Positions 12,990 to 15,634 of a stretch of DNA of 64,000 nucleotides are shown in pieces (position 1 is the first letter of the stretch; the number at the start of each line of letters is the position of its first letter). The DNA is from Microcoleus sp. FACHB-68 (GTDB lineage Bacteria; Cyanobacteriota; Cyanobacteriia; Cyanobacteriales; Oscillatoriaceae), in assembly GCF_014695715.1 (NCBI RefSeq), contig NZ_JACJOT010000006.1, forward strand, positions 310,001 to 374,000. Direction: 5' to 3'. The position numbers and the translations under genes were made by a program. The notes below the pieces were generated by a model. The model saw only the letters and a list, made by a program, of their open reading frames with translations, was not told the origin of the DNA and did not search any database.

Positions 12990-14060
12990 TTACTCAGGTT
13001 TTTGCTCTGGCATCAGACATTTATCTGAATCACAACCGGCAGGACCGGCATCCGGCATTTCCCCTGAATCATAACGCTTGAGCGCAGCGAGGAAATTATC
13101 GGTTTGGCGACGAATCAGCACTTCTTGCATTAACCGCTCATAGGTTGACTTATCCACCGGCTCAAATGGCAAGCGCGGGAAGGCTTGCAGAGAGTCAAAA
13201 CGCGCCAGAAGTGCGACTGAAATATAACCTTCGTCGTCTCGGATCGCTTCATAAATCTGCGTTCCCAAGGCTTCTATTTCACTCTCGCGCAATTCAATCG
13301 TTGCTGATGTGTTATGTCGCACATAGAATTTTTGAACTTGCATATAAAAGTCCATTTGTGCGAGTGCAGAAAACTGGTTGATGTCGATTTCATCAGCACC
13401 TGGTAAATCAGCCCAAGGGACAGCAACGGGAATTTCTACCAGCCATTCTGAACACCGGGGATCAAACGGATCGTTTAGAAGATTGCCGTTTTCATCTTTG
13501 TCAGATTGTGAAGGAATCACACTGTAACCGTAGTCAATACAAGCCAGTGCAACCGGGTCATTTTTCCGGAATGTAATGCGCCGAATAAATCGTTGCGCTT
13601 TGGGGGGATGCCAACCCGGACTTGCACTTGTCAGTAAGGATTTTGTGCCAGATGGTTGCACAGTCGTGCAGCGATTCGGGCGCTTCAATCCGTGCCGGTC
13701 ACAGTAATCCCACACCACGCGATTCACAATATCTTTCCAGCGAGTGAGATACTCCTGTTCCTGCCGTTTAAACTCCACTCCTTGTGGTGTTGCCGGTCGT
13801 CCTTCTTGCCACCAGCGCAGCCAGTCTACGCCAAAGGCATTCACGAAGAAGTCGAACAAGCCGGTGAAGGAAACTCCTACAATCGGGTCTAATTCCCGGC
13901 TGTATTGATAGCGGGGTTCAATGAATTTGTGATTGAGCAATACCGCGACGGATAATGCGCCGGCGGTAAAGGCGTCCTCAATTTCTTTTTCGTTTTTCGG
14001 ATTAATTTGATTTAAGTGAACCTCCGCAAGATTGCAGTGAAAATTAGAGCCAATAATTTC
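12990..14060 (-). CDS. nrdJ: Class II ribonucleotide reductase, 3' exon
   Basis: Second exon (356 residues) of the intron-split nrdJ gene. It begins with the codon for the active-site Glu: EIIGSNFHCNLAEVHLNQ is the direct continuation of NPCG from the 5' exon. The frame is open through 14060 although no start codon exists before 13940. It includes the conserved TTVQPSGTKSLLTSASPGWHP loop near 13640 and ends near the C-terminal Cys in GCDSDKCLMPEQK, the likely thioredoxin-reactive cysteines. Without splicing this exon has no start signal, so the intron must be removed for a functional enzyme. Confidence 0.93.
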   Translation of the reverse strand, partial: EIIGSNFHCNLAEVHLNQINPKNEKEIEDAFTAGALSVAVLLNHKFIEPRYQYSRELDPIVGVSFTGLFDFFVNAFGVDWLRWWQEGRPATPQGVEFKRQEQEYLTRWKDIVNRVVWDYCDRHGLKRPNRCTTVQPSGTKSLLTSASPGWHPPKAQRFIRRITFRKNDPVALACIDYGYSVIPSQSDKDENGNLLNDPFDPRCSEWLVEIPVAVPWADLPGADEIDINQFSALAQMDFYMQVQKFYVRHNTSATIELRESEIEALGTQIYEAIRDDEGYISVALLARFDSLQAFPRLPFEPVDKSTYERLMQEVLIRRQTDNFLAALKRYDSGEMPDAGPAGCDSDKCLMPEQKPE

Positions 14061-14386
14061 CAGTTTTGTTATCCTAAAGGCTTTTTATCCTTTAGTTCTA
14101 CTGCTTTATTTTTGCAGTAGCTCCGCGTACCTTTTGCGCGTAATTCCTCTAATAATAGAGGAGTGCCTTTCTGTTACATGGTTAACCTGTAACTATCTGG
14201 CATCTTGTTTTCGCGCCCCCACACTCTTGGAGAGATTATATTCTAAATAACTTTTTTTATTGTCATCTAGTTTCACTCTCTACGCTGTACGGTGTCAAAA
14301 GCGTTTTAGTTCTTCTGATTACCACGGGATTAGCATTTCAGCTTTCCCCGTATTTGCGGGGTTTTTAACGTGAGGCAAAATTATCT
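14061..14386 (-). ncRNA. Group I intron (326 nt) in nrdJ
   Basis: The 5' exon ends in U (CCGUGUGGU) and the intron ends in G, as group I splicing requires. The exon end pairs with the internal guide GCCUCACG at 14376-14369: seven of eight positions pair, with the hallmark U·G at the splice site and one U-U mismatch (P1). The 3' exon start GAAAUU pairs with AAUUUU immediately 5' of the guide (P10). A P2-like hairpin CCCCG / CGGGG follows at 14346-14361. The AACUAGAUGAC and AGAUAGUUAC segments could form P7. There is no homing-endonuclease ORF. Group I introns are established in cyanobacterial ribonucleotide reductase genes. Catalytic-core details were not folded by program. Confidence 0.9.
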
Positions 14387-15634
14387 ACCACACGGGTTTA
14401 AGCCCAAACGGGCTAATCGATGCTCTAACTCCTGTTCTGGCATATTCGGATAGCTTGTGTGGAACCATTCCTTAATCGTTCCTTCTTGATAAGCTTTCAG
14501 AAATGCCTTTTTCGTTTCTTGATCCGACAATAAATCATTATTAGCTCTGGCGATGGCTTCACCGGCCCACTGAATTGCACCCTCGCCGGAATAATATTGT
14601 TTCCGCACCGCTTCTGTTGTTTCTTCCAGAGTGGGTTTAGAGTGGAAAACTCTGGTGTGGTTTGCCATCCGCAGCGCATCTCTTTCGGGGTCAATTCGCC
14701 AGTTCCCGTTTTCATCTTGCTGCCAGAGATTCGTTTTAGCGCCGGCAAACAAATCATCCTCGCTTGAACCTTGTCTCATGCCAGCTGATCTTCGCACGTT
14801 GCCGGCCACCACCACCACCGCTGCTTCATCAATCAGCACACAACACTCAACTGAGTTAAGCTGCCGGCCTAATGCTTTATTCAAAATTGCGGCGCAACGC
14901 TCATATAACTCTGGTAACTTAATCGGATTTGCGACCCCACCAAACCCTTTTAAGGGTTCTCCCGCCGGCCTGACATCACTAATATTAATGATGACTTTAA
15001 CTTCGTCTGAAAAACGCTCATCTGTTGACAATTCTAGCAAAGTTTGATAAGACTTTACCCAACCTTGACGAGAATCTCCAACATGAATTAATACCTCGTT
15101 TCCAGTGATTTTGACTTCTGATTTTTCACGGCGATTTTGTGCGGGAGTTAAGCCGATTTCGCCTTGAATTTCAACATTGAGCCGATTGCGAATTGCCGGC
15201 AATTGGTTGATATACTTCGGTTCGAGGACTGCGCCGGTGCCACAACCCATCATTGCCAAATCCATCAGCAGACCAAAGGCACGCCAGTCAGCGATGTTTG
15301 TTGATGAACAGTTGTACGCACCTGAGAAATTTTGGGATTGCTCAATCCATTCGCTGCCCCCAACCCACAGCCAGCGCCCGGAGGTAAGCGCTTTGAGCCG
15401 GCGCTGCATCTGCATCAAAAGTTCAATTTCATCCGGGGTGAGTTTGCCAAGTTTCGCCAACCCCCCCACAGTGCGCTCACACACCTCTTCCCAGGTCTCT
15501 CGACCGGCTGCTGTGCGGCGGCTGTACGTTCTAAAAAATACCGGATTGGCTGCCGGTGCCGTTTCGGGAAACTCGCCGGTTGGGCGTGTGCGCTCTAATT
15601 CTCGAACCATAAGTCTTATCGGGTCAGGACACAT
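14387..15634 (-). CDS. nrdJ: Adenosylcobalamin-dependent (class II) ribonucleoside-triphosphate reductase, 5' exon
   Basis: Reduces ribonucleotides to deoxyribonucleotides using a thiyl radical generated from adenosylcobalamin, needing no oxygen or metal-radical subunit. This exon encodes residues 1-416 of a joined 772-residue protein, the right size for monomeric NrdJ. Recognisable blocks are FFRTYSRR near residue 32, SGAYNCSSTNIADWRAFG (substrate-site Cys), MMGCGTGAVLEPKYI and VRRSAGMRQGSSEDD. It ends with LNPCG. N413 and C415 are the catalytic Asn and radical Cys of the N-x-C-x-E motif. Unspliced translation adds one Arg codon and stops at TAA in the intron. The B12 requirement matches the presence of cobB in the window. 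Confidence 0.95.

Follow-up and report, generated by a model that had tools for sequence, protein, structure and literature searches.

The split nrdJ gene

The window, i.e., the whole 64-kb stretch of DNA that was analysed, carries on its reverse strand nrdJ, a ribonucleotide reductase gene whose enzyme supplies the building blocks of DNA; it is interrupted by a short group I intron. The three parts of the locus, on which the following sections build, are:

14387..15634, reverse strand: nrdJ exon 1, 416 codons, ending N-P-C-G with the catalytic Cys; TIGR02505 positions 13-378
14061..14386, reverse strand: group I intron, 326 nt, no ORF; ends from the exon reading, with U at the 5' and G at the 3' splice site, a match to the relatives' model R1 (below) and covariation
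12990..14060, reverse strand: nrdJ exon 2, 356 codons plus stop, beginning E-I-I-G; TIGR02505 positions 379-723 of 724

An earlier note on this DNA had placed the insertion at 14061-14386, precisely between the NPCG and EI codons, and the exon reading and the continuity of TIGR02505 bear this out. As that note also stated, joining 14387-15634 to 12990-14060 gives an uninterrupted NrdJ of 772 codons with NPCG-EI restored. TIGR02505 is the NCBIfam model of adenosylcobalamin-dependent ribonucleoside-triphosphate reductase (RTPR type), and since its two pieces (13-378 and 379-723) run on across the gap, the protein neither loses nor doubles anything there. Read on into the intron, the frame of exon 1 adds one R and meets a stop at the second intron codon, and the first listed start codon of exon 2 lies 40 codons in.

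The genome from which the window comes is assembled in 19 contigs and is 99.92% complete. TIGR02505 matched these two pieces only, and no match was found in this genome to PF02867 (positive in 11 of 14 control genomes) or to the class III model PF13597 (positive in six of the 14). PF02867, whose coverage of the reductase classes we take from general knowledge, does not match this RTPR gene, yet it matches other reductase large subunits. As such, nrdJ is the only ribonucleotide reductase detected in this genome. Given a sole gene and unspliced translation that halts at the second intron codon, the reductase could probably not be made without splicing, and the proposal that a functional enzyme depends on it holds, with the active-site codons split and no other reductase detected.

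Splice sites and exon pairing

The last exon base is U and the terminal intron base is G. In the window copy the exon strand CGUGUGGU pairs with the guide GCCUCACG, and a second element aligns the downstream exon:

14369..14394, reverse strand: P1, exon bases 14394-14387 with guide 14376-14369; U.G at the splice site, one U-U mismatch
14377..14382, reverse strand: 5' strand of P10, AAUUUU, pairing over 6 bp with exon 2 bases 14060-14055 (GAAAUU)

All four signals that had been described, i.e., the U at the 5' splice site, the G at the 3' end, P1 with its U.G wobble and P10, are therefore present, P1 holding a U-U mismatch as well. The U.G at the 5' splice site recurs in all 28 aligned copies, window included, and the G before the 3' splice site is an invariant column of the same alignment, in which 84.0% of cells are paired for the outer three pairs of P10 and 98.8% for the inner three. 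Among 118 distinct copies, picked by an exon pattern and with a guide pattern that was fully free at the last two bases only (the positions that co-change), CGUGUGGU/GCCUCACG was found in 112. Compensatory changes of exon and guide occur at loci L109, L130 and L237, giving CAUGUGGU/GCCUCAUG in two copies and CUUGUGGU/GCCUCAAG in one, and the guide is changed singly, with the exon unchanged, in three more (extra P1 mismatches or changes are seen in L021, L084 and L123).

Core structure and covariation

The window sequence served as the template for the structure, which was then counted on a MAFFT alignment of 28 copies, window included. Its elements are as follows:

14217..14361, reverse strand: P3, 14361-14355 with 14223-14217; six of seven pairs changed on both sides
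14291..14351, reverse strand: P4-P6a region overall
14351-14346/14329-14324, reverse strand: P4 (P4-P5, 91.5% of cells paired)
14343-14341/14334-14332, reverse strand: P5 (P4-P5, 91.5% of cells paired)
14323-14321/14293-14291, reverse strand: P6 (P6-P6a, 85.0% of cells paired)
14318-14312/14301-14295, reverse strand: P6a (P6-P6a, 85.0% of cells paired)
14124..14287, reverse strand: P7, 14287 and 14285-14281 with 14129-14124; a bulged base; GCGUA/UACGC instead of GACUA/UAGUC
14280-14276/14234-14230, reverse strand: P7.1, between the 5' strand of P7 and the 3' strand of P3; 98-100% of cells paired, with double changes
14270-14262/14251-14243, reverse strand: P7.2, likewise between P7 5' and P3 3'; 85.0% of cells paired, with double changes
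14136..14216, reverse strand: P8, 14216-14212 with 14140-14136, GCGCG/CGCGC; five of five pairs changed on both sides
14098..14120, reverse strand: P9, 14120-14114 with 14104-14098; five of seven pairs changed on both sides
14068..14098, reverse strand: conserved 31-nt 3' motif with P9.1 (14095-14089/14080-14074)

All 78 pairs are standard in the window copy. Over the 28 copies 94.3% of cells are paired, against 73.8% in shuffled alignments and 32-45% when the structure is slid by one to three columns, a share that leans towards the window copy because the structure was drawn on it; the double-change counts lean less, with 414 double-change cells (129.9 shuffled) and 50 of the 78 pairs changed on both sides (41.2 shuffled). 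The covariation score was 0.519 against 0.161, and none of 500 shuffles reached any of these four statistics. The intron has the P3-P8 and P4-P6 core with its P3/P7 pseudoknot. Subgroup IA introns are defined by P7.1 and P7.2 between P7 and P3; both are present here, P2 is absent, and the intron is IA-like. Pairing is weaker at P4, P6-P6a and P7.2, and several pairs of the P4-P6a region have six unpaired cells each, which is the number of Bacilli-type copies in the alignment. The 31-nt motif matched once in the window and in none of 100 shuffles.

P7 is paired in 100% of cells, with three of its six pairs changed on both sides. Its G-C pair, which forms the guanosine site, is kept in 28 of 28 copies while its neighbours covary, and four complementary versions occur, i.e., GCGUA/UACGC (the window), GACUA/UAGUC, GAGUA/UACUC and GCAUA/UAUGC. 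Among the 118 distinct copies the 3' element is recognisable in 115, leaving three without it, and its exact complement lies within positions 70-200, where the 5' strand of P7 is expected, in 110 of these 115 and was not found in the other five.

Covariance model searches

At the gathering score, no Rfam group I or group II model matched the intron in the 64-kb window; a search with RF00028 at E 10 over 651 bases around the intron gave no match, and a whole-genome search at E 0.001 matched two other places, not 14061-14386. The other RF00028 matches in this genome are L002 1501-1708 with 84 bits and L003 1501-1744 with 30.3 bits, the latter score being under the cut-off; judged by eye, they lie in genes resembling tRNA-Leu(UAA) and tRNA-Arg(CCU), where ARAGORN reported no tRNA. 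RF00028 is a detection model and not a defining property of group I introns. When it was run on 20 of the same-site loci described below, one relative (L013) matched with 31.5 bits (cut-off 50; E 3e-4 or 2e-5 depending on search size), and because its alignment fixes P3, P4, P7, P8 and P9 the structure could be transferred to the window copy. An A-U pair at the guanosine site, read by eye, was dropped once L013 had fixed the true P7.

A covariance model built from 14 relatives, with the window copy left out (R1), gave a single match in the 64 kb, at 14049-14398 with 246.7 bits and exact ends, the span including 12 nt of each exon. The Infernal check suggested in the earlier note thus came out divided, with no match of the Rfam group I model to this copy, which is one half of the refuting condition set in that note, and a strong match of the relatives' model, while the folding check succeeded: the intron folds 6.7 standard deviations better than 100 shuffles (z -6.7). 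The assignment to group I made there holds through the relatives, the covariation of 28 copies and the R1 match. The altered P7, with its compensatory substitutions, is probably the reason why RF00028 misses the intron.

Relatives at the same site

The 326 nt were searched at E 10 against 386 drawn cyanobacterial genomes, among them that of the window. Twenty-two loci with E 6e-9 or better were taken on, the weaker matches being mostly chance and left out, and 21 of these (the window's copy plus 20 others) have readable boundaries, all at NPCG/E in nrdJ; L016 was left out, as its 3' boundary escaped the exon pattern. In a draw of 291 genomes of the order, R1 matched 61 with an E of 1e-5 or lower, and 53 of these scored over 100 bits. 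The joined junction peptide matched 150 genomes in a draw of 291; among the matches listed about 30 show no interruption and about 45 are broken at residues 24-26, i.e., at the intron site (one of these, G536, was aligned across a stop). Other alignments begin at 21-22 or 32-33, and in some of these loci inteins are the cause.

Scans with the 31-nt 3' motif reached at least 114 genome stretches and at least 120 viral stretches. A readable intron at NPCG/E was found in 102 of the 114 genome stretches listed, and 12 were not readable, among them L064, L086 and L116, where a cyanobacterial downstream exon is present and the locus showed no upstream one. The distinct copies that have 600 nt or more of upstream exon, pooled from the genome draw and these scans, comprise, among the matches listed, 79 of an EI/EL kind, including the phage contig L237, and 30 of an EQPLAP kind, all from Bacilli except L038 (Arthrobacter). 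The reductase pieces of Metabacillus L110 match NF005991 best, and also TIGR02504 and PF02867, with 19 bits to TIGR02505 for one piece; judged by these pieces, whose NCBIfam scores lie below whole-protein cut-offs, its host gene appears to be a B12-dependent reductase of another kind. Among the viral stretches listed, the exon pattern accepted one of 120, L237; in this contig of 146.5 kb the intron encloses a nuclease gene and is flanked on each side by RTPR-type pieces. Two more viral copies, L219 and L165, were added by eye and by R1 (229.5 and 94.3 bits), the remaining 117 not fitting the pattern, and the host gene of L165 being NrdA-like as judged from ORFs read by eye.

Several of these loci carry further insertions. 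By eye, the catalytic Cys in the viral L219 (8799-8830) and L165 (1540-1580) seems to follow directly on an intein and to precede the intron by two codons, and the guide of L219 apparently fits Cys-Gly together with the codon that ends the intein. An intein-like CVSGDTLLITKD starts at the ninth codon after the intron in L017, L018 and L021, at an NFHC or DFHC motif. L012 has a group II domain V (563-640; RF00029, 59.4 bits) about 0.9 kb before its group I intron, on the same strand and in or next to nrdJ. The same-site intron of a family-mate (G432, L271) is 428 nt long, with a large insert before the 3' strand of P3 by eye and an R1 score of 218.6 bits, and the L023 intron has an insert in P9.

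Taking the first 92 nt from the guide as the intron core, exon and core distances were weakly correlated over 79 loci (Mantel r 0.25; none of 999 permutations as high). Two Tychonema loci, L015 and L004, are 7% apart in their exons and 22% apart in their cores, and the window core differs by 4% from that of L004 across 30% exon divergence; from this mismatch and this likeness, introns seem to have been exchanged at the NPCG/E site. The window core is 3-4% from those of L004, L060 and L136, with exon 1 differing by 30-42%, and in profiles of the flanking exons identity rises only slightly, and non-specifically, towards the junction. A claim that the window's intron was gained recently from the endonuclease-bearing lineage was considered and rejected, since the cores also evolve slowly.

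Remnant of a homing endonuclease gene

One further feature lies inside P8:

14135..14209, reverse strand: homing endonuclease fossil, from the 3' end of the gene, overlapping the 3' strand of P8; 75 nt, with in-frame stops

Intron positions 178-252 match the endonuclease gene carried by L060 and by L004/L062, the last two being one record, with 85.3% identity over 75 nt (E 1.2e-20 when 15 introns are searched); in the frame of that gene they read IVTG*PCNRKALLYY*RNYAQKVRGATAK against IVTGKPCSRKELLYYLREYAQKVRGATAK. The introns of L004/L062 (Tychonema sp. BBK16) and their relatives are 1152-1153 nt long with an ORF in P8, and the product of the L004 ORF has a weak similarity to phage endonuclease I (Pfam PF05367 with E 5e-5, under the cut-off; PDB 2pfj with E 0.0016) and to NUMOD3 (20.3 bits; cut-off 20.4). 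In L004 (1608-2642) and L237 (3545-4405) the endonuclease ORF continues through the 3' core to P9.1, so that the conserved 3' motif also codes the end of the protein, ELEDKKPLG. The nuclease ORF of L110 ends before the 3' core.

Between 14061 and 14386 no ORF reaches 60 codons. The intron had been called ORF-less, which is correct apart from the 75-nt remnant; the compact copy had also been described as looking recent enough to splice, but in view of the fossil its compactness is neither primitive nor fresh. Most simply, given an in-frame remnant of 75 nt, the window lineage had the endonuclease gene and lost about 0.83 kb of it, while the P8 stem was kept. The intron would then, again most simply, descend from a homing intron, and it is probably immobile now. 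We rejected the opposite reading, that the gene was never present here and was inserted into the relatives only, because the fossil aligns with the gene's last codons; a similar stretch, seen by eye in the L110 Bacilli nuclease, also opposes it.

Conservation among genus-mates

The 326-nt copy is common to the window's genome and both genus-mates examined (L269 and L270). Against L269 the intron differs at 12 of its 326 positions, each of them located either in the P7.2 hairpin or in the P8 insert (12/99), with 0/227 changes in the core and 25/500 in the exon flanks. The core differs from the two loop regions with a Fisher p of 4e-7 and from the flanking exon with p 1e-4, where the two loop regions were chosen after the differences had been seen, with limits taken from the structure, and the contrast rests mainly on L269. 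Two of the L269 changes fall on pairs of P7.2, one of which breaks its pair. L270 differs from the window copy at 17 alignment columns; column 315 is outside both loop regions, and at column 273, in the loop of P9, a single base is inserted or deleted. A conserved core with changed loops, as in L269, is what selection on a working ribozyme predicts. The copy had been thought recent, which is not borne out; being present in all three genomes, it probably predates their divergence.

Another intron at the NPCG/E bond

Two family-mates (G443 and G467; L272 and L273) have a 245-nt intron at the same NPCG/E bond in nrdJ. It scores 75 and 77 bits with RF00028 and 21-24 bits with R1, and it has its own guide sequence and, by eye, the canonical P7 GACUA/UAGUC. 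It thus shares its boundary with the window intron and differs from it in P7, guide, length and model scores. Our reading is that two group I lineages occupied one bond independently, the alternative being a very old common origin of both.

Discussion

We hold it to be very probable that the RTPR active-site motif of this gene is interrupted by an IA-like group I intron which splices to restore NPCG-EI, and which is a former homing intron, probably immobile, that has been kept for its splicing. After transcription the RNA would fold, with P1 and its U.G pair setting the 5' splice site. A guanosine bound in P7 would attack there, the freed exon end would then attack at the 3' splice site behind the terminal G, which P10 aligns, and the joining of the exons would restore the motif. 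The endonuclease gene would have been reduced to a fossil in an intron retained because it splices. Splicing in the cell is strongly implied by the sequence, as nrdJ is the only reductase detected and the core is intact and conserved, and the intron may well splice unaided.

It is highly improbable that the intron has instead decayed and no longer splices, with the pieces of the reductase made separately or the gene dead. The absence of an Rfam match to this copy and the fossil state of the homing gene would suit such decay, but all 78 pairs are intact, the core is unchanged where the exons have diverged (0/227 against 25/500 in L269), both exons of the sole reductase detected are open, and separate translation of exon 2 is at odds with a first listed start 40 codons in. 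Even less credence, close to none, can be given to a group II intron or another insertion. The element is compact and has no Rfam group I match, and a group II domain V does lie nearby in the L012 locus of a relative; however, RF00029 found no domain V in the window or in the local stretch, although the same kind of search found that of L012, and we rejected this candidate on that ground. The P3/P7 pseudoknot, the U.G at the 5' splice site and the terminal G are, moreover, group I features.

A different kind of departure would leave splicing in place and make it depend on a host protein, or make it a control point tying dNTP synthesis to GTP or translation. We consider this unlikely. It draws on the sole reductase detected and on the in-frame stop at the second intron codon; such stops are viewed, in the available text of PMC3984707, as stalling ribosomes and thereby helping folding and splicing. 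Against it, about 30 genomes of the order, among the matches listed from 150 matching genomes, have an uninterrupted site, so the intron is dispensable. Only slightly better placed, and still doubtful as a whole, is the joint reading in which the bond between Cys-X and Glu is a hot spot across reductase classes, with at least two unrelated group I lineages, one of them in RTPR, the dimeric B12-dependent NrdJ of Bacilli and a phage NrdA-like gene, in which phages are the likely carriers, and in which an intron in a sole reductase gene is kept as a GTP-dependent dNTP switch.

These findings point to an essential metabolic gene, present in a single detected copy, whose product depends on an RNA enzyme that escapes the standard Rfam model, and automated annotation is likely to call such an nrdJ two fragments. 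Furthermore, the intron family offers a natural series from the full homing intron through partial deletions to the fossil, and at the NPCG/E site introns from different phyla and from phages can be compared with one another and with a second type of group I intron.

The window intron joins a kind that is already known, namely group I introns in cyanobacterial reductase genes, and the statement to that effect in the earlier note agrees with the available text of PMC12702839, PMC1995217 and PMC3984707. Some cyanobacterial nrdE genes carry group I introns according to excerpts of PMC3984707, some introns lack P2 according to those of PMC12702839 (citing Meng, Zhang & Liu 2007, J Bacteriol 189:2150), and over 100 group I introns were curated from reductase entries in RNRdb, as given in PMC2795772. 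In the literature excerpts covered by the search, which took in few subscription papers, no account was found of the P7 variants, the endonuclease fossil, the site shared with Bacilli or the second lineage; for introns at this site in Bacilli, the search was limited and finding none is no proof of absence.

Among the nearest described systems is that of Nostoc punctiforme, whose RIR (reductase) gene carries a group I intron (Meng et al. 2007, as described in parts of the reviews PMC12702839 and PMC1995217). The intron of strain PCC 73102, known here from the reviews' descriptions, likewise lies in a cyanobacterial reductase gene and belongs to group I; the 2007 title names an insertion sequence, whereas the window intron carries an endonuclease fossil. 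The introns of phage Twort nrdE, SPbeta and B. anthracis nrdE are, by their partial descriptions, also similar in lying in reductase genes, some with homing endonucleases. Same-site relatives of the window intron were found in N. punctiforme NIES-2108 (L069), in reductase genes of Bacilli and in three viral contigs (L237, L219 and L165). The T4 td intron, of group IA2, has P7.1 and P7.2 between P7 and P3, as does the window intron, and differs from it in the sequence of P7, the place of the endonuclease gene and the host gene.
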